This document shows positions 9,555-27,606 of a DNA stretch of 45,263 bases, in pieces (position 1 is the stretch's first letter; each line of letters opens with the position of its first letter). Source of the DNA: Candidatus Gastranaerophilales bacterium (lineage in GTDB: Bacteria > Cyanobacteriota > Vampirovibrionia > Gastranaerophilales > Gastranaerophilaceae); the NCBI GenBank assembly GCA_944323425.1, contig CALUSL010000018.1, forward strand, positions 1 to 45,263. Direction: 5' to 3'. The notes beneath the pieces were generated by a model, which was not told where the DNA came from, did no database searches, and was given only the letters and a program-made list of their open reading frames with translations. A program made the translations under genes and the position numbers.

Positions 9555-9917
9555 ATGTTTTTTGGGAAAAAAATAGAATGTACGCATGACAGAGTTCATC
9601 CGGATACGGATGCACAATATTGTCCGGATTGTGGAAAATATATAGAAAATAAATGGTATCTTACCCGCTGCGCCTGCTGTAACATAAAAAGAAAAACAAT
9701 TATTAAACATGGAGAAATACAACCCTCCAGCCACTATTGTCCGAATTGCGGAGCAGAAACTTTTAGAGTAGAGCTCGTAAAAACAATTAATTTTATTGAT
9801 ATAAATTTTGCAGTGCTCGTAAAAGAAATAAATGAAGAAAAGTCTAAAAACAGATGCCAGTCATGGGTAGAAAGACAGCCCGAACCTATCAGGCTTCTCG
9901 GACTTAATTTAACTTGA
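9555..9917 (+). CDS. Zinc-ribbon protein of unknown function
   Basis: 120 residues with cysteine pairs CPDCG (about 23-27), CACC (about 39-42) and CPNCG (about 62-66), suggesting one or two zinc ribbons in the first 70 residues, followed by a short helical tail (DINFAVLVKEINEEKSKN) ending in an RQPEPIRLLGLNL stretch. I do not recognise the family. Start ATG has AAGAGG five bases upstream. It is transcribed divergently from the flagellar operon, from a 185-base gap that contains the palindrome GACCA-CC-TGGTC near 9462-9473, and lies upstream of tpiA. No membrane segment. Confidence 0.65.
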   Translation: MFFGKKIECTHDRVHPDTDAQYCPDCGKYIENKWYLTRCACCNIKRKTIIKHGEIQPSSHYCPNCGAETFRVELVKTINFIDINFAVLVKEINEEKSKNRCQSWVERQPEPIRLLGLNLT

Positions 9918-20773: not shown

Positions 20774-21790
20774 TTATGAATTTTCTTCTTCAAATTTTTT
20801 AATTAACTCATCTGCTTTTGATGTATCTAATCCGGAAACATCATAAACCATACTTTTCGGATTAATTTCATTTGCTGCGCGAACTGCTTGGTTATACAGA
20901 TTTTGTTCTGCAGGTGAAAGATTTGTTAAATCAATATATGTTGATCCGTCTTCTGCTTTTACTCTATGTTTATCATGGATGTAATCCATAATTTTATAAG
21001 CATCTGCTAAATTCAATCCATTTTCTGCTCTTTTTTCTGGTGCTTTTTGCGTCGCTATTTTTCCGTCAATAGCATCCAAAGGTTTAAGTTCTTCTGATTT
21101 TGGCGGTTCTATTTCAAACCCTGGATCGATCTTTTCACCAGGCATTGTTGGAAATTTCACATCCGGTGTTCCTTCTGGTAACTCATTACTGGGCATTGTT
21201 GGAAATTTTACCTCTGGTGTTCCTTCCGGTAATTCATTACTGGGCATTGTTGGAAACTTTATTTTTGGAGCTCCCTCTGGTGATTCTCCACCAGGTTTTT
21301 TCGAAATTTGTAACCATGGAAAAGTAATATTTAACTCTTTAATCTTTTCAAGAATAGTTGAAGGGTCTACATCTTTTCCAATAATATCTTTTATTTTATC
21401 GATAATTTTTTGAGCATTTGCATCTTCCGCATCTCTTTTCTTTTTCAACTCATCCAATTCTTTTTCTTTTTCTTTTATTTGTTCGTCAATTGATTTTGGT
21501 TGTAGTTTATTAAAAAAATCAGAAATATCATTTTTATCACCTGGCATTGTCACAGAAGGGATATTAAAATTATTATCACCACCATTAATAACATATTTTC
21601 CTCCAGGCATTTCGATACAGGCTACTGGTTTACCAAAATTTTCTTTATTTATTTTACCAGATTCATCGAATAACCCTGGGTTCTCTCTATATGGAACTAT
21701 TTCAGGTTTATCGTTCTTGTCATTCTTGTTAATCCAATTAATAGCAATTGTTGCATTTCCGTTTGCTTTTACTGCGTTAAAATTACCCAT
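20774..21790 (-). CDS. Unknown protein with 17-residue proline-rich repeats
   Basis: 338 residues, no signal peptide or membrane segment. In order: an N-terminal region with IEMPGGK and VTMPGDK motifs (to about 90); a charged coiled coil (IDEQIKEKEKELDELKKKRD); a proline-rich section with 17-residue repeats based on FPTMPSNELPEGTPEVK (two full units plus partial ones on each side, DNA 21137-21256); and a C-terminal helical part ending LDTSKADELIKKFEEENS. The recurring MPG/MPS-x-(E/K) motif links the N-terminal and repeat regions. I do not recognise it. Stands alone between two terminators with a strong AAGGAG site. Confidence 0.7.
   Translation of the reverse strand: MGNFNAVKANGNATIAINWINKNDKNDKPEIVPYRENPGLFDESGKINKENFGKPVACIEMPGGKYVINGGDNNFNIPSVTMPGDKNDISDFFNKLQPKSIDEQIKEKEKELDELKKKRDAEDANAQKIIDKIKDIIGKDVDPSTILEKIKELNITFPWLQISKKPGGESPEGAPKIKFPTMPSNELPEGTPEVKFPTMPSNELPEGTPDVKFPTMPGEKIDPGFEIEPPKSEELKPLDAIDGKIATQKAPEKRAENGLNLADAYKIMDYIHDKHRVKAEDGSTYIDLTNLSPAEQNLYNQAVRAANEINPKSMVYDVSGLDTSKADELIKKFEEENS
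21137..21256 (-). repeat. 51-bp tandem repeat inside the unknown gene
   Basis: The minus-strand coding repeat is marked on the plus strand by GGCATTGTTGGAAA starting at 21141, 21192 and 21243, an exact 51-bp period (17 codons). Units are nearly identical in DNA, so copy number probably varies between strains by slippage or recombination. Confidence 0.85.
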
Positions 21791-22899: not shown

Positions 22900-24021
22900 C
22901 TATCTAATTTGAATCGGCATTATCAAACATAAATAGTCATCTTCGCTATCAGGTCTGAATAACGTAGCCGAAAGACTTCCACCTAAGCCTATTTTAATTT
23001 TTTCTGATTCCATTATTTTTAAAGAATCAAGAACATATCTGTAATTAAATGCAATGGTTAACTCTTCATCTGTATATTCAACAGAAATAGAATCTTCTCC
23101 GAGACCGGCATCAGGAGTATCCGCTTTCAAAAACAGATTATTTTCTGCAAAAATAAATTTTACAATATTCGTTCTTTCATTAACCATTACTGCAACACGT
23201 TCAAGAGCATTAATCATATCTTCTCTTGATACAATCGCATTTTTTTCACATGTTTGAGGTATAAGCTGTTTGTATGGAGGATATTCTCCTTCGAGAAGTC
23301 TGGAGGACATGATTAAATTTGATGTTTTAAAAGTAATTTTTGTTTTTTCTACAAATAATGAAATTTTTTCTTCGCCGAGATAAGGAGCTATTCTCAAAAA
23401 TTCCTGTAGAGTTTTTGAAGGAATTACACAACTTATATCTGTTTCTTTTTCGTTTTGTATTTTTTCAATAATTCTAGTCAATCTATTTCCATCAGTAGCA
23501 GCCATTTCAAGCGAATCTTTAGAAATAGAACAGAAAACACCGCTGATTATATTTCTATTTTCATAATTTGCTGCAGAAAAAGCTGTATATTTTATTGATT
23601 TAATAAACGGATTTAGTTCAATTTCAACAAATTCTTTTTCTTTTAATTCATCTTCAGTGATAACAGGAGGAAATTCATCAGCACTAATACCAATCAATTC
23701 AAATTTTGAGTTGCCGCATGTAATATTAACGACATTTGTTGTTTCATTTAAAGAAAAAACAACAGGTTTGTTGCTTAATTTTGATGCAATTTCTGATAAT
23801 TTTTTTGCAGGTAAAGTAATTTTTCCTTCTTTTTGAACAGAAGCAACAGTGCTTGATGATATATTTATATCCAAATCTGTTGCACTAAATTTTATGTGAT
23901 TATTTTCATCCGCTTCAATTAAAATATTCGAAAGTACGGGTTGAATACCTCTTGCAACTGTAGTTTTTTCTACAATTTTTAAATTTGTTGCTAAAAGTTC
24001 TTTTTCAATTGTGAATTCCAT
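22900..24021 (-). CDS. dnaN: DNA polymerase III beta subunit (sliding clamp)
   Basis: Ring clamp that holds the replicative polymerase on DNA. 373 residues with the three-domain clamp pattern: IEKELLATNLKIVEKTTVARGIQPVLSNILIEA, KLSEIASKLSN, YTAFSAANYENRNIISGVFCSI, AATDGNRLTRI, SLFVEKTKITFKTSNLIMSSRLLEGEYPPYKQLIP and the C-terminal PDSEDDYLCLIMPIQIR. SD GGAG precedes the ATG. Upstream lies the 349-base AT-rich gap that looks like oriC; dnaN reads away from it. dnaA is not in the window. Confidence 0.96.
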   Translation of the reverse strand: MEFTIEKELLATNLKIVEKTTVARGIQPVLSNILIEADENNHIKFSATDLDINISSSTVASVQKEGKITLPAKKLSEIASKLSNKPVVFSLNETTNVVNITCGNSKFELIGISADEFPPVITEDELKEKEFVEIELNPFIKSIKYTAFSAANYENRNIISGVFCSISKDSLEMAATDGNRLTRIIEKIQNEKETDISCVIPSKTLQEFLRIAPYLGEEKISLFVEKTKITFKTSNLIMSSRLLEGEYPPYKQLIPQTCEKNAIVSREDMINALERVAVMVNERTNIVKFIFAENNLFLKADTPDAGLGEDSISVEYTDEELTIAFNYRYVLDSLKIMESEKIKIGLGGSLSATLFRPDSEDDYLCLIMPIQIR

Positions 24022-24029
24022 TTTTTCTC

Positions 24030-24350
24030 CAGAGTTTTTTGTAAGTTCTTTTTGTTTTTTATTTTATTTATTTAAATAATAAAATAATATATTTAAATAA
24101 TAATATTTAGTAAAGAAATAAAAAACTGTATAAAACTATTATAAAGCAAACATATATTTGAAACAAAGTTGTTCAAAATTATGTAAAATTTTTGTGTAAA
24201 ACTAAAAATTATTTTGAACAATTTTGTTTTTAAATTTTTTATTTATTTTTTGTACAAAATTTTTCAAAGTTTTTTACAGTCAAAAAACATTTTTTCTACA
24301 GGTTTTCTACAACAAAAAAATGACATGATATTATAAATAAAAGTCATGGA
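24030..24350. other. Candidate chromosomal replication origin (oriC)
   Basis: Gene-free, about 85-90% AT, directly upstream of dnaN. Contents: a roughly 50-base pure A/T tract (24058-24109) with the 13-mer TATTTAAATAATA twice (24069-24081, 24090-24102), a DUE candidate; an 11-bp inverted repeat TTGTTCAAAAT / ATTTTGAACAA (24169-24179, 24211-24221); and DnaA-box-like 9-mers TTTTTTACA (24270), TTTTCTACA (24292) and TTTTCTACA (24303), spaced 22 and 11 bp, plus TGTGTAAAA (24193-24201, reverse complement TTTTACACA). The cyanobacterial-type box TTTTCCACA differs from TTTTCTACA at one base. Plus-strand G over C excess appears to the right of this point and not to the left. Confidence 0.6.
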
Positions 24351-24370
24351 AACATGCTCTATTCAAAAGT

Positions 24371-24670
24371 TTAACAATTTTTAAAATCATCAGGTTTTTT
24401 GTTATGAATCCATCTTGCCAGTTCTTGTTGTTCAAAACTCAATGCGAAATTATACAAACTTTTTATTAAATTTCTTCCTGATGGAGATTTTCCTATTAAC
24501 AAAAAATCACCAGCTTTATTTTTTGCAATGTAAATTTCTTTCTGAATTATTTTTTCTACATTATTTTTTGCAGGTGATTCTATTTTTGTTTTTAACCAGA
24601 AGAAAAGAAGAGAAACCGGAGGCTTCTCTTTATTTTCTTTTAAAAAATCTGAAAATTCTTTTATTATCAT
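24371..24670 (-). CDS. Unknown small protein
   Basis: 99 residues, no membrane segment: a lysine-rich helical N-terminal half (MIIKEFSDFLKENKEKPPVSLLFFWLKTKIESP) and a C-terminal part with NLIKSLYNFALSFEQQELARWIHNKK. I do not recognise it; it does not look like DciA. Its start overlaps the stop of the isochorismatase-like gene (TAATG), so it is translationally coupled to it. It ends at the edge of the putative origin with no visible terminator. Confidence 0.55.
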   Translation of the reverse strand: MIIKEFSDFLKENKEKPPVSLLFFWLKTKIESPAKNNVEKIIQKEIYIAKNKAGDFLLIGKSPSGRNLIKSLYNFALSFEQQELARWIHNKKPDDFKNC

Positions 24671-25200
24671 TATTTTATTAATGCCTGTACCAACTTGAAC
24701 TGAGGATGTTTCGATGTTTTTAATAATTCAAACAGTACAATTTCTGTTGTTGTAATCGTTGCACCAAGTTTTTCCATGAGGTTTATTCCTGCTTTAAATT
24801 CATCTGTTTCTCTTGATGCACATGCATCTTTTATTACATAAACATTGAAGCCTTTTTCTATAAGTGCTTTTACTGTTTGGTAAACACAAATATGTGTTTC
24901 TATTCCGCATACAAAAATATTTTCTTTTTCTTTTAATGCATCATAAACACCTTCTGTTTCTAATGCATTAAAAGCTGTTTTTTCAAATACTTTGTCCGTT
25001 TCTTTTTTTGAGATAGTATCTATTGTTGAGCCGAGACCTTTTGGATATTGTTCGGTAAATATTTTTTCAACTCCAAGTATATTCGCCATTTCTGATAAAA
25101 TATAAGCTTTTTTTGTTATTTTATCTTTTTTTAGCATTTGTACTAATTTTTCCTGTATATCAATAAAAAGAATTGCTGAATTTTTTTCATTTATTGTCAT
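24670..25200 (-). CDS. Isochorismatase-like cysteine hydrolase
   Basis: 176 residues of the isochorismatase-like fold, nearest in style to the YcaC-like hydrolases. The catalytic triad is visible: Asp14 in LFIDIQ, Lys74 in FEKTAF and Cys105 in GIETHICV, with the cis-peptide region just before the Cys. Substrate cannot be told from sequence; nothing nearby suggests siderophore or nicotinamide metabolism. Lies 13 bases after the TIM-barrel gene and is coupled to the small unknown gene downstream, so these three form an operon. Confidence 0.85.
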   Translation of the reverse strand: MTINEKNSAILFIDIQEKLVQMLKKDKITKKAYILSEMANILGVEKIFTEQYPKGLGSTIDTISKKETDKVFEKTAFNALETEGVYDALKEKENIFVCGIETHICVYQTVKALIEKGFNVYVIKDACASRETDEFKAGINLMEKLGATITTTEIVLFELLKTSKHPQFKLVQALIK

Positions 25201-25213
25201 TTTTTTATTTTCC

Positions 25214-26008
25214 TTATTTTATTGTTTGTATATCAAAGCATTTATCAAAAAATTGAACACTTTCTTCCAATTCTTTTTTTTCAAAAATTTCAAAAACCAT
25301 TTTGGGATTCAGTTTTAAATCTTTTATTGTATTGAAAACTTCCTGAACATTTATTGTTCCCTTTAGCAGTGTGTTATGAGAGTCGTCTTTACTATAATTG
25401 TTATGCAGGTGCATATGATAAAGATGTTTGTTGTATGTTTGAATCCATTCCACAACAGGCACTTTTGAATGTATATTTACATGTCCTATGTCCAAAGATA
25501 TTTTTAGATTAGGAGAATTAACTTCTTTTATTACATCGAGAATAAAATCCGGATTTTTTTCCTGAACATTTTCTATAACAGCTGTGATGCCGGTATATTC
25601 AAATTGTTTTACGAATGTTTTCCAAAAGGCAATAAATTTTTCCTTGAACATTAACTGATACATGCTGTGATTTAAAAAAGCATTGAAACCAGTATGATAT
25701 ACAACTGTTTTTGCGCCTAGATATTTGGCAGCATCAAGTGATTGTTGAAATCTTTTTATAGATACTTCCCTGATTAAAGGATCTAAACTCACTACAGATA
25801 AATCAAACAAAAAACCGTGCAGGCTTGTTTCTCCTTTAAAACTAAAAAGAGCTTTTTTCATTGTCTCTACTCTTTTTGTGAGAGTTGAATCAATGTCATC
25901 CAAATTCGGTGCAAACCTGCTTATTTCAAGGTTACAATTTAAATCTTTTGCTATATTTACGGCTTCTTCAAAATTCTTTGAAATAGATGATGATATAAAT
26001 TTTTGCAT
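25214..26008 (-). CDS. Sugar phosphate isomerase/epimerase-like TIM-barrel protein
   Basis: 264 residues of the AP endonuclease 2-like (xylose isomerase-like) barrel: TSLHGFLFDLSV, KYLGAKTVVYHTGF, GITAVIENVQEKNPDFI, LKISLDIGHVNIHSK, YHMHLHNN (metal His), and MVFEIFEKKELEESVQFF at the end. Metal-binding residues (Glu in VIEN, Asp-His in DIGH, His in HLH, Glu in FEIF) are present, so an active metal-dependent enzyme is likely; endonuclease IV and isomerases share this pattern. Start ATG is the first in frame, 36 bases after the upstream gene. Confidence 0.75.
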   Translation of the reverse strand: MQKFISSSISKNFEEAVNIAKDLNCNLEISRFAPNLDDIDSTLTKRVETMKKALFSFKGETSLHGFLFDLSVVSLDPLIREVSIKRFQQSLDAAKYLGAKTVVYHTGFNAFLNHSMYQLMFKEKFIAFWKTFVKQFEYTGITAVIENVQEKNPDFILDVIKEVNSPNLKISLDIGHVNIHSKVPVVEWIQTYNKHLYHMHLHNNYSKDDSHNTLLKGTINVQEVFNTIKDLKLNPKMVFEIFEKKELEESVQFFDKCFDIQTIK

Positions 26009-26044
26009 AGGTTATCTTCTTTGTTCTACAAAAATATAATAGCA

Positions 26045-27289
26045 TTAATAGGATTTATTTTGAAATTCGTTAATAAATTCTTCGAGAAGACTTCCCAGTT
26101 TTGATGTTGTAATTTCTGAGATATCAAGAGATAGTCTTTTATTGCTTATATTTTCAAATTCTTGTTCATGTGATATATCTATATTTATTTTTGTATAACC
26201 GGGATATGTTAGTTCGAATATACTCTTTCTTTCTTCGTTTTCGAGCATAAAATAGCAGTTATTTTCTTCTGTTTTATATTGAATATTTGTCTTGAAAAGT
26301 TTTTCCTCAATTCTTTTCTGTGTTTGATAAAACAAAGGAGCAACTATACATTCTATTTTTTTATGAAAAGCCTGTTTGAAAAGTTTAAAGTTTTTAATTT
26401 GAGGTTTCTGATGTTCAATACTTTTTATCTGTGTATTTGTTGAGCTTCTGGCAACAAGAAAAGAGTTACCCTTTAATAAAGCTTTTGCAAGGAATTTGTT
26501 TGCCTGTTTTTCTGCTTCTTCAAATGGTGTGTCGTTCATCTCTACTATACCTGCACTGATTGTGCAATTTTTCGGCAGCTCATTTTTTATTTTTGAAAAA
26601 ATTGTCGTTGTGTCTTTAGCTTTTGTTTTTTCAAACCATAAATAAAGTTTGAAGTCATTAGAAAAACCGACGATATCTGTTGCTCTTATATTCTTTTTTA
26701 TTATTGATGCCAGATGTGCTGGAGATAATATGTTTCTGGTATTTACATCCGGTGCTACAGCGGCAAATGCACCTTTTGTTTTTTCGCTTTTTGTTTTTAA
26801 AATTTTATTTATATAGTTTTTTGTATACAACCCGTTTTCGATATCAATTATATCAAGCTGCGCTAAGATATTTTTTTTCGTTTCTATATTTCTGAGCATT
26901 TCCTTTTTTTGAAGAGCCCAGATTACCCTTAATGTAAATTCTGTATCAGTAGATTTTACGTTTAGAAAGTCAGATATACCATGTTCAAAAGCAGTACAGA
27001 GCATGTCATCATTCTGTTTTGAGAAAACAGGGATAATCTGGCATTCTGCGAGATCAGAGTTCTGATGCATTTTGTTAATAAAATTAATAAAATCTGTTTC
27101 TCGTTTTTTGCCTTTGTCTAAATAATAAAAAATGATACATGGTTTTTCTTTTTTTATTATAGAAAAAGCTTTTTCATATTTTGCAGCAGAAAAATTGTCT
27201 ATATTTCTAAGCAGAAGAAGTTTATTTTTTATCAAATCAGAGACGATACTGTTGTCTGTTATCAATAAAATATTATTTTCTGTACTCAT
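26045..27289 (-). CDS. Pseudo-receiver plus degenerate GGDEF protein
   Basis: 414 residues, cytoplasmic. Residues about 5-115 follow a response-regulator receiver (NILLITDNSIVSDLI; KPCIIFYYLDKGK), but the phospho-acceptor Asp is replaced by Tyr. Residues about 130-290 follow a GGDEF domain: DIENGLYTKNYIN, then DIVGFSNDFKLYLWF where GGDEF should be, then CTISAGIVEMND and EKQANKFLAKALLKGNSFLVA. The active-site GGDEF is lost (SNDFK), so no cyclase activity is expected. A C-terminal 120-residue part is unknown. Start ATG 27289 preferred to TTG 27304. Divergent from flagellin, which suggests a motility role, but this is inference. Confidence 0.65.
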   Translation of the reverse strand: MSTENNILLITDNSIVSDLIKNKLLLLRNIDNFSAAKYEKAFSIIKKEKPCIIFYYLDKGKKRETDFINFINKMHQNSDLAECQIIPVFSKQNDDMLCTAFEHGISDFLNVKSTDTEFTLRVIWALQKKEMLRNIETKKNILAQLDIIDIENGLYTKNYINKILKTKSEKTKGAFAAVAPDVNTRNILSPAHLASIIKKNIRATDIVGFSNDFKLYLWFEKTKAKDTTTIFSKIKNELPKNCTISAGIVEMNDTPFEEAEKQANKFLAKALLKGNSFLVARSSTNTQIKSIEHQKPQIKNFKLFKQAFHKKIECIVAPLFYQTQKRIEEKLFKTNIQYKTEENNCYFMLENEERKSIFELTYPGYTKINIDISHEQEFENISNKRLSLDISEITTSKLGSLLEEFINEFQNKSY

Positions 27290-27359
27290 TTTTACTCTCA
27301 ACAATTTTTATAAACATTTTATCTCAAACTATAAATCCAGTAAATTTTTTTACTTTTTT

Positions 27360-27382
27360 CATGCCTTTTTGGCATGCTTTTT
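27360..27382 (+). terminator. Orphan terminator-like hairpin ahead of the flagellin promoter
   Basis: CATGCC-TTTTT-GGCATG followed by CTTTTTT reads as an intrinsic terminator in the plus direction, yet no plus-strand gene lies upstream (the neighbour is on the minus strand). It may shield the flagellin gene from antisense read-through or end a short RNA from the 27305-27359 gap. Confidence 0.5.
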
Positions 27383-27438
27383 TCTCTTTTTTGAAAAAGT
27401 TCATACTTTAGTTTAGAAATTTTCCAACTAAATAAGCA

Positions 27439-27465
27439 TAAAGAAGCTTTTAAAATGACCGTAAT
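27439..27465 (+). promoter_or_regulatory. Sigma-28 (FliA/SigD) promoter of flagellin
   Basis: TAAA (27439-27442), 15 bases, then ACCGTAAT (27458-27465). This matches the flagellar sigma-28 layout TAAA-N15-GCCGATAA with the exact spacing and the CCG core. Predicted start near 27472 gives a leader of about 135 bases, long enough to hold the CsrA-like hairpin. Confidence 0.75.
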
Positions 27466-27563
27466 ATAAGAATGTAAGAAACATAAGTCATCAAAAACTC
27501 AATAATTATAAGGCTAAGCGAGTAGTAGGGTTCTTAATACCCTTACCTGTCTTGCCTTTGAGA

Positions 27564-27577
27564 GTACAAGGAAGTAC
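27564..27577 (+). promoter_or_regulatory. CsrA-binding hairpin in the flagellin leader
   Basis: GTAC-AAGGAA-GTAC: a 4-bp stem presenting AAGGAA in the loop. GUACAAGGAAGU matches the CsrA SELEX consensus RUACARGGAUGU at 11 of 12 positions. A second AAGGA is the Shine-Dalgarno (27593-27599, AAAGGAG), 25 bases downstream, the two-site layout known for CsrA repression of B. subtilis hag. Confidence 0.7.
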
Positions 27578-27606
27578 AGAATTTTTCTCAAGAAAGGAGA
27601 ACAACT

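Follow-up and report, generated by a model that had tools for sequence, protein, structure and literature searches.

Is the intergenic gap upstream of dnaN in a bacterium of the Gastranaerophilales its chromosomal replication origin and, if so, which sequences does its initiator recognise there? We analysed the window, a 45,263-base contig (G000:C18) from a 2.03 Mb draft genome of 47 contigs, together with sampled relatives; all genomes analysed are drafts or MAGs. The source lineage is Gastranaerophilales, as judged from dnaN relatives at 92-95% protein identity, which are Candidatus Gastranaerophilales MAGs. A first-pass annotation had proposed an oriC in the 349-bp gap, from which dnaN does indeed point away. 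The literature library that we searched yielded no paper on origins of Melainabacteria, Gastranaerophilales or Vampirovibrio. The proposal is borne out by box clustering, by an array and DnaA-trios that are conserved across the order, and by skew switches in near-complete relatives; on these sequence-based grounds, we regard the gap as very probably the chromosomal replication origin of this bacterium. The type of origin is a known one; what is unusual is that initiator recognition has probably changed throughout the class.

At 84% A+T, the gap is expected to contain A/T tracts, short repeats and hairpins by chance, but not the 9-mers found within it (Table 1). Nine TTTTNNACA 9-mers lie in the 349 bp where 1.2 are expected, and 0 of 3000 dinucleotide shuffles reach nine; four words chosen from the upstream regions of relatives occur in five copies against 0.41 expected, again with 0 of 3000 shuffles reaching that number. 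Clustered DnaA-box-like 9-mers are therefore present in excess of chance, and the densest 350-bp box windows across the 45 kb all fall at 24.0-24.5 kb. In the genome as a whole, TTTTCTACA is not enriched (89 copies, versus 105 for the reversed control), and exactly one pair of copies is spaced by 30 bp or less, namely that in the gap. The window holds eight copies of TTTTCTACA, five of them within 1.2 kb around oriC and all on the plus strand; more TTTTCTACA or TTTTGAACA words lie within dnaN and the 99-aa ORF on the far flank, at 23345, 23831 and 23966 (+), 24429 (-) and 24552 (+). As for canonical boxes, the window contains no TTATCCACA and one copy of TTTTCCACA, at 9630. The first-pass annotation had listed TTTTTTACA, the two TTTTCTACA copies and, on the minus strand, TTTTACACA; all are where it placed them, but the list was too narrow, lacking both copies of TTTTGAACA, TTTTATACA and the overlapping TTTTGTACA pair. 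The other elements that it described are also present: an A/T tract of about 50 bp, two copies of a 13-mer, TATTTAAATAATA, that start 21 bp apart at 24069 and 24090, and an inverted repeat with 11-bp arms at 24068-24078 and 24090-24100. However, neither the 13-mer nor the inverted repeat is conserved in relatives, and the tract is conserved only as an A/T-rich stretch following the DnaA-trios.

Table 1. Features of the putative origin and its flanks, in window coordinates.
Feature	Position	Strand	Basis or remark
dnaN, beta sliding clamp of DNA polymerase III, beside the candidate origin	22900-24021	-	TIGR00663, E 5e-88, above cut-off
Candidate oriC, intergenic, dnaN upstream, 84% A+T	24022-24370	.	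nine TTTTNNACA words; architecture kept in relatives
A/T-only tract, ~50 bp, probable unwinding element, contains both 13-mers	24054-24109	.	sequence
Degenerate DnaA-trio run TTACTAAATATTATTATT	24096-24113	-	relatives: TTATTACTATTATTATTT, CTACTACTACTA
13-nt spacer GTTTTTTATTTCT, proximal box to DnaA-trios	24114-24126	-	12-14 nt in most relatives
Trio-proximal DnaA box TTTTATACA	24127-24135	-	relatives have box at same trio-adjacent place
DnaA-box-like TTTTGAACA, ~43 bp from proximal box	24170-24178	-	sequence
Box-like TTTTACACA, weak; word not enriched in relatives	24193-24201	-	sequence
DnaA-box-like TTTTGAACA	24212-24220	+	word enriched in relatives
TTTTGTACA overlapping pair, palindromic TTTTGTACAAAA	24248-24256 / 24251-24259 (24248-24259 overall)	+ / -	
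TTTTTTACA, weak box-like; word not enriched in relatives	24270-24278	+	sequence
DnaA box TTTTCTACA, distal tandem array	24292-24300	+	word in relatives 89 vs 0.35 expected
DnaA box TTTTCTACA, 11 bp from 24292 copy	24303-24311	+	sole TTTTCTACA pair <=30 bp in genome
99-aa ORF, far flank of oriC	24371-24670	-	order-conserved, 57 loci by tblastn

The same words recur upstream of dnaN in relatives. Across 46 dnaN-upstream regions of the lineage we counted 109 copies of TTTTGAACA (1.95 expected), 89 of TTTTCTACA (0.35 expected) and 78 of TTTTATACA (2.95 expected), and 0 of TTTTCCACA. When 39 whole genomes of the order were searched, 38 of 46 TTTTCTACA pairs fell upstream of dnaN at a distance of no more than 700 bp, and the reversed control pattern produced 1 match. 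Read toward dnaN, the design comprises a distal array, an oppositely pointing second array, a last box, a 12-14 bp spacer, trios and an A/T-rich stretch. The section from the box to the A/T-rich stretch is found in nearly every relative, in several families, with a fixed positional layout, and the box position at -45, to which the 24170-24178 copy of TTTTGAACA corresponds, is occupied in 19 out of the 22 close relatives that were anchored. Boxes on the same strand are most commonly spaced by 11 bp (74 cases), with 43 bp second (29 cases). This spacing, and a box that differs class-wide from TTTTCCACA, uphold the earlier suggestion of a lineage-specific box type with helical phasing. In two genomes the array is absent directly upstream of dnaN, and the TTTTCTACA pairs are some 5 kb distant (G004, C4:76007; G010, C2:53820); the array can thus be displaced, whether by a gene inserted between oriC and dnaN or by movement of the origin. 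We also considered DnaA-box control of dnaA, but a conserved box is absent from the 400 bp upstream of dnaA across the order, and a seeming TTTTCTACA box before dnaA is located inside the gene.

Since these boxes depart from the canonical form, the initiator itself is of interest. In the window's genome, dnaA lies on a different contig from dnaN and the gap. We aligned DnaA to chain 1J1V, domain IV of the E. coli protein, which anchors the residue numbering used here. The protein keeps Arg399, Pro423, His434 and Thr435, and has Lys at position 433 in place of the Asp of the canonical Asp-His pair. Among 100 genomes sampled overall, residue 433 is Lys in 34, Arg in 1 and Asn in 1 of the order, and Lys in 20, Thr in 6, Arg in 4, Gly in 4 and Gln in 2 of the rest of the class. 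Hence, Asp433 occurs in 0 of 72 sampled class members (Lys in 54), as against 28 of 28 phylum members outside the class. Sampled cyanobacteria read K-D-H-T-T, with Met438 and Tyr439, and the DnaA encoded with the window reads K-K-H-T-T, with Met and Tyr; among the listed base-contacting positions, only 433 separates the two. In a quick tree built from 99 DnaA proteins, a single branch with support of 88 separates the Asp group from the rest. One family (f32; L253-L256) has Gly433 and Asn434 (GRGNS), so that the Asp-His pair is wholly lost; its box type was not recognised, and clear boxes near dnaN were found neither in this family nor in f35. In a further genome (G014), the DnaA C-terminal domain was matched three times; two of these matches fall on short reading frames and may be fragments or reflect contamination (5%).

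The box differs between the same groups. We counted the base x in TTWTNxACA words within 1 kb upstream of dnaN. In the order, x is C 7 times, T 163, A 82 and G 6 (expected 4, 13, 13 and 5), so the order does not keep the C6 of canonical TTWTNCACA (4.0 expected); in the rest of the class the counts are C 8, T 33, A 38 and G 13 (expected 4, 7, 7 and 3); and in Asp433 genomes they are C 100, T 1, A 5 and G 1 (expected 1.4-2.2). The sampled phylum members outside the class have TTTTCCACA or TTATCCACA boxes. Within the class, Gln, Asn and Thr cases are few and some box calls comprise two copies: a Gln433 genome (G091, 47% G+C) has six TTATCAACA around dnaN and zero TTATCCACA; an Asn433 genome of 1.5 Mb (G005, L314) has two copies of TTATAAACA, one of them separated by about 14 nt from a run resembling trios, and a short gap before dnaN that looks like an origin; and one Thr433 family has TTWCTTACA adjoining the trios. 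Arg433 members have mixed boxes. A TATCAACA pair in a Thr433 genome (G101) was rejected as an origin; it sits in coding sequence.

We propose that origins of this class probably work with a changed DnaA-box specificity, the near-invariant, DNA-contacting Asp433 having been replaced (by Lys here) and C6 having given way in step to T or A. The data tip slightly in favour of the class having rewired initiator-origin recognition, with loss of Asp433 accompanying loss of C6 and a pairing of Asp with C, Gln or Asn with A, Lys with T or A, and Thr with T in a further altered box. Whether the residue drove the change in the box is a separate matter; the association is a correlation that represents essentially one phylogenetic event, and we lean only a little towards the residue as the cause. 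C, through N4, and A, through N6, can both donate hydrogen bonds to an acidic side chain, and amides are frequent partners of A. Loss of Asp433 may free the box from needing C6. Against a simple form of this link, published work places the Asp433 contact at box base 7, beside base 6 (PMC8235120). Base 7 is still A in the boxes described here, and the effect at base 6 could thus either be a neighbour effect or have arisen separately.

An alternative possibility, which we consider unlikely but worth weighing, is that the boxes are TTTTCCACA that drifted towards AT, with no relation to residue 433. Class genomes are mostly AT-rich and, with the published contact at base 7 (PMC8235120), a switch at base 6 is no obvious consequence of losing Asp433. 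Nonetheless, class members whose loci have 47-54% G+C (G119, G123, G124, G127 and G145) have T6 or A6 boxes, and AT-rich Asp433 members with 37-39% G+C (G042, G054 and G057) retain C6, from which we conclude that base composition does not explain the change. The Gln433 genome described above, at 47% G+C with its TTATCAACA boxes beside dnaN, likewise argues against drift.

The arrangement around the proximal box, to return to the origin itself, resembles that of known unwinding systems. The opposite strand of the trio run reads 3'-GAT-5'/3'-AAT-5', the DnaA-trio motif. Runs of TTATTACTATTATTATTT are found near the window's genus, and TTACTACTACTATT or CTACTACTACTA in other families. Relatives clearly have a DnaA box within 0-16 bp of at least three DnaA-trios, across a spacer of 12-14 bp; the window's own run is degenerate, with an interrupted register, as it is in its genus. 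The commonest spacer in basal unwinding systems (BUS) is 13 bp (PMC8287927), which matches this locus. We suggest that DnaA would bind the TTTTNWACA boxes TTTTCTACA, TTTTGAACA and TTTTATACA through domain IV, with the 11-bp phasing setting protomers along one face of the helix. An ATP-DnaA filament would then grow from the proximal box across the spacer onto the trios and capture one strand, and the A/T tract would open so that the helicase can be loaded, in the manner of the B. subtilis BUS.

A different reading of the array is that its 9-mers are operators for a regulator of dnaN transcription; the array is upstream of dnaN and certain box words are partly palindromic with their neighbours. 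We consider this highly improbable, given that skew switches sign at the same place, that DnaA-trios stand at BUS spacing, that phylum members with Asp433 carry canonical DnaA boxes in the corresponding position upstream of dnaN, and that dnaN-adjacent TTTTCCACA origins have been published for cyanobacteria (PMC4674748).

We computed GC skew for the window and for sampled stretches of relatives. In a relative of the same order assembled in 3 contigs (G034), skew is minus to the left of dnaN and plus to the right, with the sign switching at dnaN, 263.1 kb. The single-contig Gln433 genome, from the same class, has a single minus-to-plus change, at dnaN and its TTATCAACA cluster (1.737 Mb). A further relative (G062) has skew too weak to point either way. 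In the window, skew is negative to the left of 24 kb, flat from 24 to 30.5 kb and positive beyond, and the cumulative minimum is a broad, flat valley whose lowest point, 28823, is 4.5 kb from the array. This pattern fits an origin at 24 kb with leftward-reading genes beyond it (24371-27304), which flatten the skew there. An origin elsewhere in the neutral-skew stretch of 24.4-30.4 kb, for instance in the divergent gap before flagellin (27305-27606), would suit the flat valley and its minimum but is the least probable reading, given those leftward genes, the concentration of the contig's densest box windows at 24.0-24.5 kb and the sharp switches at dnaN in relatives. The first-pass annotation had named a distant skew minimum and unconserved 9-mers as grounds for doubt; as assessed partly on relatives, one of them with weak skew, its origin reading survives both. 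Two TTATCAACA clusters flank dnaN in the Gln433 genome with the sharp skew switch (L307; 1737347-1737492 and 1740422-1740475), possibly forming a bipartite origin.

The origin proposed here shares features with several characterised systems. Those of the cyanobacteria Cyanothece, Anabaena and Synechococcus likewise have dnaN as neighbour with dnaA elsewhere, boxes starting with TTTT and an A/T-rich stretch, but they have TTTTCCACA boxes with C6 and Asp433 rather than T or A and Lys433 (PMC4674748). The lineage here is Gastranaerophilales and not Cyanobacteria proper, which corrects the earlier comparison with cyanobacteria. Origins with BUS and DnaA-trios, described for B. subtilis and H. pylori among many other bacteria, share the proximal DnaA box, the spacer (about 13 nt), the trios and the A/T-rich DNA (PMC8287927); here, the box is non-canonical and the trios of the genus are partly degenerate. 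Epsilonproteobacterial origins (core TTCAC) also combine a class-wide box shift with changes in the DnaA recognition helix, but their boxes have T as a fixed base 5 and their DnaA retains Asp433-His434, whereas in the present class Asp433 is missing and the box differs at base 6 (PMC5043019). In Thermotoga maritima, box-contacting residues are unconserved, the box is altered and trios are needed (PMC10316083; residues, PMC7561715); its box is longer, whereas the one described here has stayed a 9-mer and departs from the consensus at one or two bases.

A class with shifted boxes and without Asp433 is a natural experiment on change in an essential protein-DNA contact. If our proposal is correct, it provides a natural recognition series, with origins partly orthogonal to canonical DnaA. 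Origin finders that seek TTATCCACA or TTTTCCACA can miss such origins. TTTTCTACA and TTTTGAACA beside dnaN would allow growth-rate estimates from metagenomes for an abundant, hardly cultured gut lineage.

Two reading frames near the locus deserve mention. A 338-aa ORF between thrB and atpD (20774-21790, minus strand) has no family above cut-off. The 99-aa ORF likewise matched zero families above cut-off in Pfam and NCBIfam; its 57 tblastn loci have 40-97% identity, and in G034 it is on the opposite side of dnaN compared with the window.
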